A stretch of 64,000 bases of DNA, taken from NCBI RefSeq assembly GCF_005116675.2, contig NZ_CP050699.1:3557001-3621000 (forward strand), in the 5' to 3' direction. Of the stretch, positions 2,885-12,338 are shown piece after piece; within the stretch, counting starts at the first letter, position 1, and each line of letters starts with the position of its first letter. The position numbers and the translations under genes are program-made. The notes under the pieces are model-generated. The model saw nothing but the letters and a program-made list of their open reading frames with translations, had not been told where the DNA came from and ran no database searches. This DNA is from Desulfosediminicola ganghwensis. Lineage in GTDB: Bacteria > Desulfobacterota > Desulfobulbia > Desulfobulbales > Desulfocapsaceae.

Positions 2885-4261
2885 ATGTTCAGACTACTCA
2901 CCCTGATTACCCTGTTTTTTCTATCCTCGAATAGTTTCGCTGAAAATAACACCAACGATCTAAACATTTTCTATTCCAATGACCTCCTTGGAGAGCTTGA
3001 GCCCTGCGGTTGAAAGTCAAAACAACTGGGCGGTCTGTCCAGAAGAGCTTTATTGATTGAAGAACTTTCAGCCAACGTCGGCGATGTACTTCTCTTGGAT
3101 GCCGGAAATCTCCTTTTTTCCAGGGATGGAGCAAGGGAATTACTGCAACAGGATGTAGTTACTGCGAGAGGCATTTACGAAATTTATGAAGACCTTGGCT
3201 ATCACGCGATAGCTGTTGGTCCCTACGATCTCACAGCCGGCCTTAGCACAATTACCGACCTCTCGGGCTCGGTACCCTGGATTTCTTCCAATATTATAAC
3301 CCAGGGCGGAGAATACATATTTCCTCCCTGGGTTCTTGTTGAATTTGAAAAACAGAAAATCGGGATTGTGGCGCTGACAGCCACTCCACGAATAGTAAAC
3401 GATAATTACAAGATGCTGGAGTGGAGGGATGCTCTCACTGATGTGTTGACCAGGATCTCTCCTGATTGCGATGCCATCATCCTGCTTTCCTCTTTGGATA
3501 CAGCAACAAATCAACAGATAGCAGAACAATTTTCTGACATCAGCCTCATCCTGACCGCTAATAAGCGGAATGGAAATCGTCCTCCAAAACAGATAGGTGA
3601 TGCGATCACCAGTCAGGTGCAAAGCCGTGGCCGATATCTTGGAGTTCTCACCTTCCCCATGGGGCTGAAAAACCTGCTGGCAGACAATAAGAAAACGGAA
3701 AACTTCCAATACAGGTCGATAGCTCTTCAGCCCAATCTTGAAAAATCACAAGCTATTGATAACAAGGTTGCTGAAATACAACGTGATATAGCAAAAATTG
3801 GCAAGCGTGCGAAATATCAACCCCAGCAAAAAACACAATCAGATACTTCAAACAACCAGTCTGAAATATCTTCTTACAGGACGTGTGTTGATTGCCATAA
3901 GGAAACGGTCGCCAGGTGGGAAAAATCCCCTCACGGTCGGGCATATCAGACCCTGGTAGATAATAATCAGCAATACAACCTTCGTTGTTTGCCCTGCCAT
4001 GTGACTGATTCGGCAAACCAAAAGGCAACAGGGGTTCAATCCATGCAAGCTGATGACCTGAACTATAAACTGCTTCATCTCAGCTCTGAAAAGCAATCCG
4101 TCAGCTGTAGTGCCTGTCACCCAGGCTCCGGACTCCATGCCAAAAACAATGGTAATTTAAGGTATCTGCAAAAAGTTTCTCTAGAGCTATGTATCACATG
4201 CCACACAAAGGAACTGACTGCGGATTTCAACTTCAATAAAAAGAAAAAAGACGTGCACTGA
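2885..4261 (+). CDS. Predicted selenoprotein: degenerate 5'-nucleotidase-like domain plus tetrahaem cytochrome c domain
   Basis: The frame opens at ATG 2885 with a signal peptide (MFRLLTLITLFFLSSNSFA, cleavage near residue 19) and runs to TGA 4259-4261, interrupted only by an in-frame TGA at 3011-3013 (codon 43). The flanking residues, GELEPCG before and KSKQLGGLSRRA after, form one continuous family motif in which, from memory, relatives carry Cys (EPCGC). Reading TGA as selenocysteine gives 458 residues. Residues about 26-250 follow the UshA/5'-nucleotidase scaffold, but its usual metal ligands look replaced (NDLLG for NDLHG, DAGNLL for DAGDLL, VGPYDL for GNHEFD). The C-terminal part has four CXXCH haem sites with first Cys at residues 334, 368, 408 and 436, including SPHGRAY, as in the cytochrome c554-like family. 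It is probably a periplasmic redox protein of unknown substrate. Not recognising the TGA would start the protein at TTG 3053 without a signal peptide. The alternative is a nonsense-mutated pseudogene, less likely because the rest is intact. Confidence 0.82.
3011..3042 (+). promoter_or_regulatory. In-frame UGA (selenocysteine) with bacterial SECIS-like hairpin
   Basis: Directly after the TGA (3011-3013), CTGGGC (3026-3031) pairs with GTCCAG (3037-3042) to give a 6-bp stem with one G-U pair and the apical loop GGTCT. The loop G and U fall at nucleotides 23 and 24 counted from the U of UGA. This is the same place, and nearly the same loop, as in the E. coli fdhF SECIS element bound by SelB (from memory). 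That supports recoding rather than termination. Confidence 0.75.
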
Positions 4262-4536: not shown

Positions 4537-5466
4537 TTAGCAACCGAAAGCGGTCTGCAGGTTAGGAACAGTCTGCTTCTTACGGCTCATCATGCCGTCA
4601 ACCCACATGGAATTATCTTCCAGTTTGCCACCGAAAGCACCTTCTACAAGTGCGGTATCGTCAGAGAGAACTACCAGATCGGTACCCTCTTTTACAACGT
4701 CGGTAAGCATGAGCAGTACAGAATGACGTCCTTCAGCCTTGACCTCTTCCATAGCTTTCAGGAGATCGGCACGGATAGCAGCTACCTGATCAAGAGTAGC
4801 AAGCTCGAGCTGGCCTACACCAACTTTGTTGCCATTCATGTCAAAATCTTTGTAGTCACGGAACAGCAGGTCTTTCGCAGGCACACCGTCTACAGAAGAC
4901 TTCGCCTTGAGCATCCCCATGAAAAGTTCCTCGGTGTCAGCAACACCGGCAACTTCTTTCAGCTCTGCAACTGCAACTTTGTCATCTTCGGTGCAGGTAG
5001 GTGACTTGAAGTTTACGGTATCACTGAGAATTGCGGCGAGCATACCACCAGCAATGTCCTTAGGGATAGCAACACCAGCCTCTTTGAACATTTTGTTCAA
5101 AACGGTACAGGTACAGCCCACAGGCTCCGCACGGAAGAGAATAGGATTGTTGGTGGTTACATCACCAATTTTGTGATGATCAACAATGGTAACTACGGTA
5201 GCTTGATCAAGGTTAGCAGGGCCCTGAGCGATATCGCTGAAGTCAACCAAAGCGATCTCTTTACCGGCAGCGTCAGTAATTTCTTCTGGCGCGGTCAAAC
5301 CAAAACGCTCGAGAACCATGGTGGATTCCGGGTTCAAATTTCCAGCAGTGGACTGCATAACAGCCTTTGCTTCCTGTCCCTGTGCGTTCAGGAGAGCAGC
5401 CAGCGCGATTGCAGAAGTAACTGAATCTGTATCGGGATTTGAATGTCCTACAACTAAAATAGCCAT
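4537..5466 (-). CDS. ppaC: Manganese-dependent inorganic pyrophosphatase
   Basis: This 309-residue family II pyrophosphatase (DHH superfamily) hydrolyses pyrophosphate to phosphate in the cytoplasm, pulling biosynthetic and sulfate-activation reactions forward. The metal-binding residues are at the canonical places: H8, D12 and D14 in GHSNPDTDS, D75 in ALVDFSD, and the D96-H97-H98 motif. The C-terminal DHHA2 domain ends with a SRKKQ substrate-binding motif (MMSRKKQTVP). Length matches the family. A GGAGG ribosome site precedes the ATG. The gene is transcribed alone and ends at the terminator 4449-4482. Sulfate reducers release much pyrophosphate at the ATP sulfurylase step, so the role fits the inferred lineage. 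Confidence 0.97.
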   Translation of the reverse strand: MAILVVGHSNPDTDSVTSAIALAALLNAQGQEAKAVMQSTAGNLNPESTMVLERFGLTAPEEITDAAGKEIALVDFSDIAQGPANLDQATVVTIVDHHKIGDVTTNNPILFRAEPVGCTCTVLNKMFKEAGVAIPKDIAGGMLAAILSDTVNFKSPTCTEDDKVAVAELKEVAGVADTEELFMGMLKAKSSVDGVPAKDLLFRDYKDFDMNGNKVGVGQLELATLDQVAAIRADLLKAMEEVKAEGRHSVLLMLTDVVKEGTDLVVLSDDTALVEGAFGGKLEDNSMWVDGMMSRKKQTVPNLQTAFGC

Positions 5467-5697
5467 GTTCTTCCTCCGTAAATAAATTAATAATAAAATC
5501 AGACTACTATATTAATAACAAACTCGTTTATACTGAGTTTTTTCATTTGAAATTGATGGCTTAACATAGTGTCTTCAACTCATCCAGTCAAGCAGAAAAA
5601 AAAGCCTGCAATCCTTGTTGTAAACTCAATTTCTAAGTTGCCAAAATCTATGGCGCAGCCACTTAATATGCTTGCTGTTCTGCTACCGTTTTGTTTG

Positions 5698-5726
5698 GTG
5701 ACATTGCTATTCGGTTGTAATATAAT
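5698..5726 (+). promoter_or_regulatory. Near-consensus sigma-70 promoter
   Basis: GTGACA (5698-5703) and a perfect TATAAT (5721-5726) are separated by exactly 17 bases. The predicted start of transcription, near 5733, leaves a 40-base leader before ATG 5775, supporting that start for the downstream gene. Confidence 0.65.
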
Positions 5727-5774
5727 GTTTAGTTGTTCACGCCTTCACCTATCCCCTCAACACATCAGATCGCC

Positions 5775-6776
5775 ATGGAAGACCAAATAAAAGAACGAAT
5801 AGAGGTCCTGAGAAGAAAGCGTCGCAACCGCTCACTTTTTCCAGCTGCTCTAGTATCAGGTATCTTCATCGTTGTTGTTAGTGCATTCTTTTTCTACCAG
5901 AACAAAACAGATGTACAATCTCCTGATTCCAGCCAATTAACAGCAACCACACAAGCTGAACCTGCTGTTTCAGTGTCTCCGAAAGTTGTTTCCGAACAGA
6001 CTTCTGGCGCTCCGAACAAGCTGGATGCTGAAGGGGACCCTATTGGAGATATAATCTCCTCAAGTCAAATTGAAATTCCTGAAATAATACCCCAAGCACA
6101 ACCTGCTGTAGAACAAACCACGCCAAAGGTTGTCGCTGAACCGGTAATTGAACCGGATGTCTATCAGCAGGCGGCTGATAGAATCAGGCATTTTTACTCA
6201 GAGATGGATGAGAAAAGATATATTAAGGGGTATCATCTGAATGAACCAAGTGAGAGCTATTTCTCTTCACTTACCCAGAAGGCTTTGGACAATCCTCCTA
6301 TCGTCTCCGGCGAAACAGATGACCTTTTCAATGTGCTTAAAAACACCGCACATTTCTTCAGAGTCGTTGGCAAAAAAAACATTATCGTCATCAAATCCAT
6401 CCTGCATGAAGAAAAGAAGTCATACGAAGATGTGCTAGCAGATTACTATCTTCTCAGCAAGAAACCTGAATACCTAAATAAAGAATTTTCGTTACAGGTT
6501 ACCGACGATGCCTTATTGGAGTATGCCGGTTTTTTCCTGAACACCATGGGTGGGAGGCTTTACCTCTTCAGACGAGACTCCGTATCCCGTATGCTGGTCA
6601 ATTATTACGCTATATTAATAGTTGACCAGGCAAACCATGAAGCTCGCAATAGTTACGGTATAGATATCAAGCCTGCCATTACAGCCCTCATTGACGAACT
6701 CGAAACGAGCAACGCCCAACTGCAGTCAAAAGAGACATATCTCGATACCCTCTACACCTTAAAGGAAAGGTATTGA
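5775..6776 (+). CDS. Membrane-anchored protein of unknown function
   Basis: The preferred start is ATG 5775 because a strong promoter just upstream would put a TTG start at 5733 at the transcript's first base. The 333-residue product has a basic N-terminus (residues 5-20, many Arg/Lys), one membrane segment at about 22-41 (FPAALVSGIFIVVVSAFFFY), and a Pro/Gln/Thr/Val-rich linker to about residue 125. A mostly helical C-terminal domain follows, with YLNKEFSLQVTDDALLEYAGFF in the middle. Topology predicts the C-terminal domain in the periplasm. I do not recognise the family. The flanking genes ppaC (divergent) and the M18 aminopeptidase give no functional clue. Confidence 0.75.
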   Translation: MEDQIKERIEVLRRKRRNRSLFPAALVSGIFIVVVSAFFFYQNKTDVQSPDSSQLTATTQAEPAVSVSPKVVSEQTSGAPNKLDAEGDPIGDIISSSQIEIPEIIPQAQPAVEQTTPKVVAEPVIEPDVYQQAADRIRHFYSEMDEKRYIKGYHLNEPSESYFSSLTQKALDNPPIVSGETDDLFNVLKNTAHFFRVVGKKNIIVIKSILHEEKKSYEDVLADYYLLSKKPEYLNKEFSLQVTDDALLEYAGFFLNTMGGRLYLFRRDSVSRMLVNYYAILIVDQANHEARNSYGIDIKPAITALIDELETSNAQLQSKETYLDTLYTLKERY

Positions 6777-7160
6777 TCCAGAAATCGGTTAGAGGCGCTT
6801 TCAGACCGACACAGGTCTCGTGAATATGCGCGGTGCAGATACAAACTAAAGACGTGATTCTCTGAAACAGGAAGACATCCCATTGGAATTTGAACTTGAT
6901 GCCGCATTTGAAGCCAGCGCGTAATCTGCCCTTTTCGATATTTACACTAGGCATCAGTGGATAAGGAAGACGTTTCTCACAAAGGAAAATTCCACTGCAC
7001 AAATTACTGCAGTTGCCTACTCCTGTTTAAACCGTATTTTACAATCACTGGCCAGCAACAGCGTCGAGGGCACCCGGCGCTTAATAATTGTATCTGCTAT
7101 AATGAACACTGAGCAGCCCTAATCCATTCATAATATTCATAATCATACCATTGCAGCCCC
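6777..7160. other. Intergenic region, no gene seen
   Basis: About 380 bases hold no supported gene. A short plus-strand frame ending near 6930 reads as an acidic tail (PLEFELDAAFEASA), but a stop precedes it. It could be debris of an older gene and is too short to call. Confidence 0.4.
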
Positions 7161-8492
7161 ATGACTGAAACTCATCACATGAAAGAACTAACAGAAAGGT
7201 ATAATTCAGATCTTTTTCAATATCTGGACGCATCTCCCACAGCTTTTCATGCAGTCGAAGAATTAGCAAGTATGTTATCAGCCAGGGGCTTTATAGAGCT
7301 TCACGAAACTGAGCCCTGGAAGCTGCTGAAAGGCAAGAGGTATTTCGTAACCCGTGAAAATTGCTCGCTCATCAGCTTTATTTTGGGCAACGAAGATAAA
7401 CCTTCTGATGGATTCCGCATTATAGGCAGCCACGCTGACAGCCCTGGCCTGCAATTAAAGCCGAAATCCATGGTAATCAATGACCCATACCTTCAACTTG
7501 GTGTAGAAATATACGGCGGTCCCCTGCTGAACACCTGGTTCGACAGAGATCTTTCCCTGGCCGGCAGAGTGAGTTGCTCTGACGGCCAGGGAAACCTGGT
7601 GGAACACCTGATAAATTTTCAACGTCCTCTGCTTTCAATTCCAAGTCTTGCCATTCACCTGGACAGGGAAGCCAACGAGGGACGCGCCATAGATAAACAG
7701 AAAGCTCTTCCTCCTGTATTTGCTCAAACCCTGGATGTCAATATTCCTGAGTTCAACCAGATTATCATGGCCCAGATACAGCAACAAAACCCTGGCTCTG
7801 TTGCTGAGAAGGTGCTTGCTTTCGACCTGTTTTGTTACGATCCACAGAAGGCAACCTACCTTGGAATCAATGATGAATTTATTGCCAGTGGCAGATTGGA
7901 CAATCTCTTGAGCTGTCATGTTGCAGCAACAGCCATGGCGAATTGCAATGGAAAGCACAACAATTTCTTTATCTGCACAAACCATGAAGAAAACGGATCT
8001 ACCTCTACAACAGGCGCTCAGGGTTCTTTTGCTCAAGATATATTGTCACGAATAATACCTGAGCCCGAAAGTCAGCAAATTTCCATTCGCAATTCGTTTT
8101 TTATTTCAATCGATAACGCCCACGCTTCTCATCCGAACTTCAAAGAGACTGCTGAACCTGATCATTGCACAGTGTTAAATGGCGGACCGGCAATAAAGAT
8201 TAATGCCAACCAGCGTTATGCAACCAATAGCAGGTCTGCTGCCGTTTTTAAGTTATTGGCCCAAAAAGCAGATATTGAGGTGCAGGAGTTTGTAATGCCT
8301 ACCGGTAAACCGTGCGGGAGTACCATTGGCCCAATGACTGCTGCCAAACTCGGAGTGCAGACTATTGATATTGGTGTCCCCACTTTCGCCATGCACTCCA
8401 TTCGTGAGATGACAGGTGCCAGCGACCCGTACAAATTACTGCGAGTCATCCAAACCTTTGTTGACTCCCCTCATATGCAAAAGAGCAAATAA
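7161..8492 (+). CDS. apeB: M18 family zinc aminopeptidase
   Basis: This 443-residue protein matches the M18 (aspartyl aminopeptidase/Lap4/ApeB) family along its length. It removes N-terminal amino acids from peptides in the cytoplasm. Family landmarks are SPTAFHAVEE near the N-terminus, GSHADSPGLQLKP with a zinc His and Asp, the domain junction GGPLLNTWFDRDLSLAGRV, SGRLDNLLSC, NHEENGSTS with the catalytic and zinc Glu residues, DNAHASHPN, and IGVPTFAMHSIREM with the last zinc His. ATG 7179 is an alternative start; no clear ribosome site separates the two. The gene is transcribed alone. Confidence 0.95.
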   Translation: MTETHHMKELTERYNSDLFQYLDASPTAFHAVEELASMLSARGFIELHETEPWKLLKGKRYFVTRENCSLISFILGNEDKPSDGFRIIGSHADSPGLQLKPKSMVINDPYLQLGVEIYGGPLLNTWFDRDLSLAGRVSCSDGQGNLVEHLINFQRPLLSIPSLAIHLDREANEGRAIDKQKALPPVFAQTLDVNIPEFNQIIMAQIQQQNPGSVAEKVLAFDLFCYDPQKATYLGINDEFIASGRLDNLLSCHVAATAMANCNGKHNNFFICTNHEENGSTSTTGAQGSFAQDILSRIIPEPESQQISIRNSFFISIDNAHASHPNFKETAEPDHCTVLNGGPAIKINANQRYATNSRSAAVFKLLAQKADIEVQEFVMPTGKPCGSTIGPMTAAKLGVQTIDIGVPTFAMHSIREMTGASDPYKLLRVIQTFVDSPHMQKSK

Positions 8493-9529: not shown

Positions 9530-10126
9530 ATGGGCATTATGACAAGCACAACGACTCTACGAATTGCTACACTTTACAGGTTTTGCGCGCAAAGCCTCCA
9601 ATACCCTGACACAAACTGGCTTAACGCAGATTATTTGCAGGGATTGTATTCACTTCTCGAAAGTCTTGGAGCAGATGATGAACTTGAACAGGTCCAGACA
9701 GCTTTTGAGACTGATCCAGACATTCTTGAGACGCTACAAATTGAACACACAAGGTTATTCATAAACGGTGTTCCACACGTTGTAGCCCCACCTTATGGCT
9801 CGGTTTACGTGGATAAATCCCTGCAAGGATTACATACAGAAAAAACCCTCAATTTTTATGCAGAGTGCGGATACAGCCTGAAGCACGGGTCAGATCTGCC
9901 GGATCACATCATCCACCAACTTGAATTTCTGTCTCTGCTGGCGGAAAACAACGACGCAGAGCACGAATCAGAATTTTTGCAGACCATATTTCTTCCATGG
10001 TTCAGCAAGTTTGGCGCGAGAGTAAAGCAGGAGACTCACCACCCGTTTTATTCTGTAATTGTTCAACTCATTGATTATTTAACGAAGGAGGAAGACGAAC
10101 ATGGCATTCAACTTGACGAGGCGTAG
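9530..10126 (+). CDS. TorD/DmsD-family redox-enzyme maturation chaperone
   Basis: The 198-residue, all-helical protein has the TorD-family layout: a helical N-terminus (LYRFCAQSLQYP), the IEHTRLFINGVPHVVAPPYGSVY core motif (family pattern ExxRLF...P..P.YxS.Y), and the C-terminal PDHIIHQLEFLSLLAEN. These chaperones bind the twin-arginine signal of a partner molybdoenzyme, insert cofactor and hold back export. The partner is clearly the next gene, which starts at 10101 inside this frame (26-base overlap), so translation is coupled. ATG 9539 is an alternative start. Confidence 0.88.
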   Translation: MGIMTSTTTLRIATLYRFCAQSLQYPDTNWLNADYLQGLYSLLESLGADDELEQVQTAFETDPDILETLQIEHTRLFINGVPHVVAPPYGSVYVDKSLQGLHTEKTLNFYAECGYSLKHGSDLPDHIIHQLEFLSLLAENNDAEHESEFLQTIFLPWFSKFGARVKQETHHPFYSVIVQLIDYLTKEEDEHGIQLDEA

Positions 10127-12338
10127 ATTTTTACAATCTGCCTCTCTGGCAGCTGCTTCCATACCGCTTTCAAAAGTTGTTTCCGCAGAGACCGGGTTTG
10201 TTCAATCCCCACTTGAACCGAAAGGCTCCCTCAAGGAAGAAACCGCAACGGGTGGTATCTGTGAAATGTGCTTCTGGAGATGCCAGCTCATAGGTAAAAA
10301 ACGTGACGGCAGACTTATAAAGCTGGAAGGTAACCCGAAATCAATAGACAACGGCACTTCCATCTGCGCCAGGGGCAACGCTGGCATTAAGCTGCTTTAC
10401 GATCCTGATAGATTGAAATACCCTCTGAAAAACGTGGGCGAAAGAGGCAAACCCGTCTGGAAACGAATCAGCTGGGAAGAAGCGCTTGCGGAGTGTTCAA
10501 GCAAATTGAAGGGTGTTGTCGATAAATACGGCCCCCAGGGGATTGCAGTCTTTCCCCATGGTTCGACCGCCAAATACCCGATGCATTTCTTTGAAAGAAC
10601 CGTCGGAACGCACAATGTGAGTGAGGCCTCTTTCTTCCAGTGCCGAGGCATTCGTGATACAGCATACTGGGCGACAATCGGCAAAGCTCCAGGCGAAAAC
10701 GTCGATATGCCGAATTCCAAAGCTATTATGCTGCTCGGCTCGCATATTGGTGAAAATGTTCATGTTTCGCATGTTAAGAGCTTTATTAAAGGTCTGCAAA
10801 ACGGTTCCAAGCTCATTGTTGTTGATCCACGATATTCTGCAGCTGCGGCGAAATCCGATGTCTGGGTGAAAATCAAGCCTGGCACCGATACCGCTTTTCT
10901 GCTGGCGATTATGAACTATCTCGTTAAGACAGAAAAATATAACGTCGACTTCATTGATGAATGGGCAGATGGTTTTGATGAGTTTGCCGAAGGTATCGCT
11001 GACTGGACTTTTGAAAGAGCTGCCAAGGAGTGTAATATCCCTGTCGAGCAGATCAAAGAAGTAGCAGACATACTCGCAGAAAACGCTCCCAATGTTTCTA
11101 TCCATCCTGGTCGCCACGTAAGCTGGTATGGAAACGACTTTCAGCGACAACGCTCACTCGCCTGCCTCACCGCACTTCTTGGCGCTTATTATGTAGAAGG
11201 CGGCTGGGTACCAGGTATCAAACCCAAGGTTGGTAAAGTAAGCTGGGCCAAGCATGATCATGGTAACGAGCACAACCTCAATTACAATGAAGACGAGGAA
11301 CTTCGCCACCCATTTACACCTCCGGGAACACCTACTGAGTTGATTCGAGATGCGGCTCTGACTGGTAAACCGTATCCTATCAAAGGTTGTGTAATCTGGG
11401 GCCAGAACCCTATCCAGACCATCCCTGGCCAGGAAAAGATGAAAGATGTGCTCCGCCAGATGGATTTCGTCATGTGTGTTGACGTGATGCCAACAGACGC
11501 GACCATGTGGGCTGATATTCTTTTGCCTGAGGCAAGTTATCTCGAACGCTTTGATCTTGTGAAAACCGGTACACAGTGGGATTTCTCCGAAAAGCATCAA
11601 CAATACATCACTGCCAGGATGCCATTGGTTGAACCAATGTTTGAACGCAAGGACAACGTGTTCATTACCAACGCCATCGCCAAAGGTATGGGTCATGAAG
11701 AAGAGATTCCAGTGAAAACCGTTGAAGAAATGGTTGAAAAGAATCTCGCTGTAGCGGGGCTCAGCATAGCACAGCTCAAGAAAGAAGATGGCATTCATCT
11801 TCGCGACGGCAAGGACCCATACGGCATCCCTGAAGACTTTGAGGTTCTGCTTTATAACGAAGATATCGAAGATGCAGGATTCCCTGGTGTGCCAACCTAT
11901 ATGCCTGTCGAACCACCACCAGCCGGCTTTGCCCGGCTACTCTATGGCCGTGTGCCTGTCCATACGTTCAACAGGACCCAGAACAACGCCTGGCTCAACT
12001 TTGCCATGCCGGAAAACCCTGTCTGGATTAATGATGAGACCGCGAACAAACTGGGCCTGAAAGATGGTGACACTGTCGGTCTGGTTAACAGTGAGGGATT
12101 CAAGTCCCACACCACTACTACGGTTAAGGTAACTCCCGGCATCAGAAAAGATTCAGTCTATATGGCCCATGGTTACGGTTCCGCCAATCCACTGCTGAGT
12201 GTTGCAGTGAATGCAGGTGTCGATGACACAAGTCTTATGACCAAGATTGCGATAGATCCAGAGACTGGTGCCCATGGTATGCGGAACAACTTTGTCAAGC
12301 TGATCAAAGACGGCAAAGTGCTGGACATTCCGGCATAG
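10101..12338 (+). CDS. Tat-exported molybdopterin oxidoreductase, PsrA/PhsA-like catalytic subunit
   Basis: The 745-residue protein starts with a twin-arginine signal (TRRRFLQ at residues 6-12), so it is folded in the cytoplasm and exported to the periplasm. The first domain binds one 4Fe-4S cluster through C54, C57, C61 and C89. The bis-MGD domains follow, with C181 in SFFQCRGIRD in the usual position of the Mo/W ligand; a Cys ligand fits the polysulfide/thiosulfate reductase branch. The C-terminal molybdopterin dinucleotide-binding domain begins near residue 620 (NNAWLNFAMPENPVWIND). AGGAGG precedes the start. The FeS subunit follows. No NrfD/PsrC-type membrane anchor is encoded beside it. 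The likely role is reduction or oxidation of a sulfur or other inorganic compound; the substrate cannot be assigned from sequence. Confidence 0.92.
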   Translation: MAFNLTRRRFLQSASLAAASIPLSKVVSAETGFVQSPLEPKGSLKEETATGGICEMCFWRCQLIGKKRDGRLIKLEGNPKSIDNGTSICARGNAGIKLLYDPDRLKYPLKNVGERGKPVWKRISWEEALAECSSKLKGVVDKYGPQGIAVFPHGSTAKYPMHFFERTVGTHNVSEASFFQCRGIRDTAYWATIGKAPGENVDMPNSKAIMLLGSHIGENVHVSHVKSFIKGLQNGSKLIVVDPRYSAAAAKSDVWVKIKPGTDTAFLLAIMNYLVKTEKYNVDFIDEWADGFDEFAEGIADWTFERAAKECNIPVEQIKEVADILAENAPNVSIHPGRHVSWYGNDFQRQRSLACLTALLGAYYVEGGWVPGIKPKVGKVSWAKHDHGNEHNLNYNEDEELRHPFTPPGTPTELIRDAALTGKPYPIKGCVIWGQNPIQTIPGQEKMKDVLRQMDFVMCVDVMPTDATMWADILLPEASYLERFDLVKTGTQWDFSEKHQQYITARMPLVEPMFERKDNVFITNAIAKGMGHEEEIPVKTVEEMVEKNLAVAGLSIAQLKKEDGIHLRDGKDPYGIPEDFEVLLYNEDIEDAGFPGVPTYMPVEPPPAGFARLLYGRVPVHTFNRTQNNAWLNFAMPENPVWINDETANKLGLKDGDTVGLVNSEGFKSHTTTTVKVTPGIRKDSVYMAHGYGSANPLLSVAVNAGVDDTSLMTKIAIDPETGAHGMRNNFVKLIKDGKVLDIPA

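Follow-up and report, generated by a model that had tools for sequence, protein, structure and literature searches.

A probable selenocysteine-containing UshA-like tetrahaem protein in Desulfosediminicola ganghwensis and its possible role in periplasmic sulfur redox chemistry

In a 64,000-nucleotide stretch of the Desulfosediminicola ganghwensis genome (hereafter the window), the gene at 2885–4261 on the plus strand almost certainly encodes a selenocysteine (Sec)-decoded member of the NCBIfam family NF041198, as judged from its sequence and those of its relatives. The explanation that we favour as a whole, and consider likely, is that of an exported Sec-decoded NF041198 protein with haem-coupled sulfur or thiol redox chemistry.

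The UshA-like selenoprotein gene starts with ATG and consists of 458 codons followed by a TGA stop codon. Its frame is open except for a single TGA at 3011–3013, giving a translation of 458 residues with Sec at position 43. A sequence-only reading of the window had described one in-frame TGA in an otherwise intact gene with four haem sites, and its coordinates were confirmed. By sequence inspection, residues 1–19 (2885–2941, plus strand) form a probable signal peptide with a hydrophobic stretch and then SFA, and the product is probably exported. A 5'-nucleotidase/SoxB-like domain of approximately residues 22–308 (2948–3808, plus strand) includes the CxU motif Cys41-Gly42-Sec43, encoded by TGC GGT TGA at 3005–3013 on the plus strand, in which Cys41 is invariant. 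A tetrahaem cytochrome domain of the c554/c7-like kind was assigned by Pfam at 3881–4207 (plus strand), with CxxCH sites at 3884–3898, 3986–4000, 4106–4120 and 4190–4204 on the same strand. Without readthrough, the longest open reading frame has 402 residues and starts from TTG at 3053 (codon 57). The expectation that gene callers would miss the first 56 codons therefore holds for translation without readthrough, but NCBI annotation has a dedicated model for the family, so that some pipelines may find the true start.

The assignment of Sec to the internal TGA was evaluated by comparison with orthologues. Of the 49 aligned orthologues from the window's order, 46 have TGA at codon 43 and 3 have TGC. 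The identity of the window protein was 35–37% to the proteins of its own genus and ∼28–34% to the others, and such low identity among orthologues sharing the TGA indicates that the TGA is old and that the frame is under selection. Downstream of the TGA, a predicted bSECIS apical hairpin (CTGGGC-GGTCT-GTCCAG; 3026–3042, plus strand) pairs 3026–3031 with 3037–3042 around the loop GGTCT at 3032–3036; numbering from the U of UGA, position 23 is G and position 24 is U. In this numbering, columns 16–21 pair with columns 27–32 in the TGA genes of the order, and the loop is GGUCU, GGGCU or GGACU, the commonest being GGUCU, which we take to match the E. coli fdhF SECIS. All 46 TGA genes retained five or more of the six pairs, against 9.7 genes expected when synonymous codons are shuffled, and 33 of the 46 retained all six, against 1.4 expected under the same shuffling, while the three Cys genes kept 2, 2 and 3 pairs. 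In an 18-sequence set, 98% of the cells paired, the closing pair swapped between C-G and U-A, and sliding the hairpin partner destroyed the pairing pattern. Taken alone, the hairpin of the window gene does not stand out from synonymous shuffles (p = 0.07), and the argument therefore depends on the comparison across genes. No Rfam match in the window reached the gathering threshold, and the other TGA-interrupted frames of the window showed no comparable motif on inspection. The sequence-only reading had proposed a selenoprotein with an fdhF-like SECIS and with homologues that have Cys in place of the TGA; the hairpin in all TGA genes and its loss in the three Cys genes, the TGC orthologues together with Cys in other relatives, and the selB, selC and selD genes described below bear it out on each point. 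In sum, the TGA at 3011–3013 very probably encodes selenocysteine.

In the window's genome, we found tRNA-Sec (75.4 bits, also detected by ARAGORN), SelB and two SelD genes (L019:1501–2424 and L020:1501–2430), each with one in-frame TGA. One of the two selD genes adjoins a gene for 202 residues that starts with MAKEIDACGLTCPAPVLLV and is TusA/YedF-like by inspection. The selA models gave no match in this genome, and selA was likewise unseen in genomes G003, G008 and G025, while among 70 genomes of the order 58 had a selA match above the cut-off. In G001, a sister genome, the gene immediately after selA encodes a protein of 722 residues, and the best homologues of this protein in the window's genome (G000), G003 and G008 each abut 5,000–7,500 N. 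Synteny with G001 places the expected selA position in these blocks, at L134:5502–13001 (G000:C1:3922501–3930000), L135:5002–12501 and L136:5502–10501. Because the homologues of the neighbour of selA abut the N blocks, selA is probably inside the block, and the selA of the window's genome most likely lies within its 7,500-N block. The idea that selA is truly missing, as a peculiarity of the biology, was thus rejected, its expected place being N-masked in G000, G003 and G008. An archaeal-type SepSecS replacement was not found in the five genomes searched. A check for selA, selB, selC and selD had been suggested beforehand; it was positive for the last three, and selA was unseen with N at its expected place.

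The window protein matched NF041198 (UshA_like_PCGU, 'UshA-like (seleno)protein') with 377.6 bits against a curated cut-off of 275. It has the same domain order as this family, EPCGU at residues 39–43 corresponds to the PCGU/PCGC (CxU) motif, and the C-terminal multihaem part matches profile positions 343–518 with all four CxxCH present; the interdomain linker is shorter, skipping profile positions ∼267–342, and there was otherwise no difference. Of 117 genomes of the window's order, 85 had an NF041198 match above the cut-off, and these matches nearly always contain a TGA. The related selenoprotein family NF049981 (UshA-like (seleno)protein family 2) gave a weak match of 43.4 bits, below its cut-off of 140, and its motif is CxxU (PMC13188914), as opposed to the CxU of the window protein. 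A 'UshA-like, COG0737, CxU' selenoprotein family with 76 marine metagenome sequences was reported in 2008 (PMC2398784), and the UshA-like CxU family is also catalogued as a selenoprotein in PMC9312934 and PMC13188914. Since NF041198 is curated and the family appears in three papers, the statement of the sequence-only reading that no selenoprotein had been described in this family was wrong. The window gene adds a member to an already catalogued selenoprotein family that entered the literature in 2008 or before; we found no function assigned to the UshA-like CxU selenoprotein family.

Alignment-based pattern scanning of named genomes yielded 60 relatives with Cys at position 43, where the scan sought the letters PCGC and hence finds Cys forms only and is silent on Sec forms outside the order. 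When the window protein alone served as the query, no match was obtained in named genomes. The Cys relatives belonged to the Desulfobulbaceae including Candidatus Electronema, the Gammaproteobacteria, the Myxococcota, the Bdellovibrionota and others, and were mostly four-haem proteins where complete, with the same architecture in other phyla. In a tree of 95 proteins, all Sec forms came from the window's order, within which two Cys groups are nested, and the named Desulfobulbaceae fell inside the group of that order, which places the window in this part of the Desulfobacterota. The outer groups were Cys forms, in a biased sampling with an outside scan that finds Cys forms only; the same bias applies to the 3 Sec/Cys changes on this tree as compared with 32 for shuffled labels. 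The homologue in L177, a record titled as a Klebsiella pneumoniae metagenome-assembled genome, groups with Myxococcota-type sequences, and the record name is probably wrong.

The convergent neighbour of the window gene, at 4537–5466 on the minus strand, was named by sequence inspection as a DHH-type (probably manganese-dependent) inorganic pyrophosphatase. Of the 59 loci compared, 41 contain a homologue of this pyrophosphatase, as a rule adjacent to the UshA-like gene, and RarA (name by inspection) was also a conserved neighbour. This synteny is conserved but uninformative on function; a functional clue from the window's neighbourhood was accordingly rejected, and we claim no functional link. 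Further along the window, translation inspection identified a TorD-like chaperone gene at 9530–10126, followed by a Tat-type molybdopterin oxidoreductase of the Psr/Phs kind at 10101–12338. In five Desulfobulbaceae loci with the Cys form, from cable bacteria and relatives (L138:180–4550, L140, L139, L143 and L144), the UshA-like gene is followed by one for a membrane protein that carries several c-haem domains, and the preceding gene is DsbC-like in two of the five (L138 and L140), which are closely related. These neighbours favour thiol chemistry connected to respiratory cytochromes, as suggested by adjacency in few genomes.

Each of the 44 aligned members matched Pfam Cytochrome_C554, and 43 of the 44 matched c7. 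The four CxxCH motifs were invariant in the aligned members, as were two further histidines at 350 and 418, which are candidate distal haem ligands. The haem domain is shared with the cytochrome c554 and c7 families, which differ from the window protein in that it joins this domain to a UshA-like domain bearing Sec. The order also contains members that lack haems, and in some of these CGU is replaced by CGGU or CGSU; not every family member therefore requires the haem domain. Haemless Cys-x-x-Sec members of the same locus were located at L113:5475–6671, L119:5404–6678 and L121 (minus strand, ∼5.9–7.2 kb). Alternatively, the Cys-x-Sec domain might have a binding role, for a ligand or for a metal, such as that of a sensor, carrier or chaperone in the periplasm, with the haems only keeping it reduced. 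The family is poorly characterized and has no known substrate, which would accommodate such a role, but a four-haem fusion would be costly for a sensor and Sec is usually retained for catalytic redox chemistry, so that we consider a binding function unlikely and favour haem-coupled redox chemistry.

A structure model built from 44 sequences (mean pLDDT 83.9) matched UshA, CD73 and SoxB at Z ∼30 over roughly residues 20–308, including the SoxB structure 2wdc at Z 29.7. Together with the Pfam matches, this agrees with the 5'-nucleotidase-like fold and multihaem domain read from the sequence beforehand. In a profile alignment to the nucleotidase 3ivd, P-C-G-U falls directly after the first metal-binding motif. 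The ligands of the UshA two-metal site, which we take to be D, H, D, N, H, H and H, are in variable columns in the 44 aligned members, and the site is not conserved: the D41 column is N or D, the H43 column is Q, L, R or H, the D84 column is mostly N, A or G, the N116 column is P, R, A or G, and the GHxH histidines are gone. Cys41, Gly42, residue 43 (Sec or Cys), GGL and Asp72 are invariant in the family alignment. Compared with E. coli UshA and CD73, the window family thus shares the fold but lacks conserved metal ligands and has gained Cys-x-Sec, and the window protein has a tetrahaem domain and no nucleotide-binding C-terminal domain. Given the fold and weak SoxB and UshA profile matches, the selenoprotein could still be a metal-dependent hydrolase, either a nucleotidase or a SoxB-like thiosulfohydrolase, with Sec or Cys as an unusual metal ligand or nucleophile. 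This is improbable, as the known metal-ligand columns are not conserved and the score against the SoxB model TIGR04486 was 44.4 bits, far below its cut-off of 550. That the gene is a pseudogene or contains a sequencing error, with TGA as an ordinary stop, would fit the one in-frame TGA and the unseen selA, but is refuted in practice by the relatives, in which the same-codon TGA, the frame and the hairpin are conserved in dozens of species, by Cys in other homologues and by the presence of selB, selC and selD, leaving it a very small probability, in line with the otherwise intact gene of the sequence-only reading.

For the favoured haem-coupled redox chemistry, we propose the following mechanism. 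The UGA at 3011–3013 would be decoded as Sec by SelB and tRNA-Sec with the downstream bSECIS hairpin. Because the metal ligands are not conserved and Cys41-Gly-Sec43 is invariant, the N-terminal domain may no longer hydrolyse phosphate or sulfate esters and may have gained thiol/selenol redox activity. The Cys-x-Sec motif would react via a selenenylsulfide with a periplasmic disulfide, persulfide or similar oxidized sulfur compound, and would exchange electrons, in one direction or the other, with the fused tetrahaem domain and from there with the cytochrome pool. We give this redox mechanism about even chances of being right. From the family comparison, we infer that the protein is a thiol/sulfur oxidoreductase of the periplasm that is wired to its haems. 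The uncharacterized periplasmic reductase suggested by the sequence-only reading is likewise a proposal. More tentatively, and with slightly more doubt than confidence, it may represent a class not yet described biochemically, in which a metallophosphatase fold has turned into a Sec-dependent thiol/sulfur oxidoreductase that has lost its metal site and is electrically connected to a fused tetrahaem cytochrome.

The function of the family becomes testable through its anatomy, namely the lost metal site, the invariant Cys-x-Sec, the four haems and the existence of Sec and Cys forms, and through the cable-bacterial loci in which the Cys form neighbours genes for a membrane cytochrome and a DsbC-like protein. 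If true, the proposed chemistry would put the 5'-nucleotidase/SoxB fold to redox use and would directly link Sec chemistry to multihaem electron transfer in sulfur-cycling bacteria.
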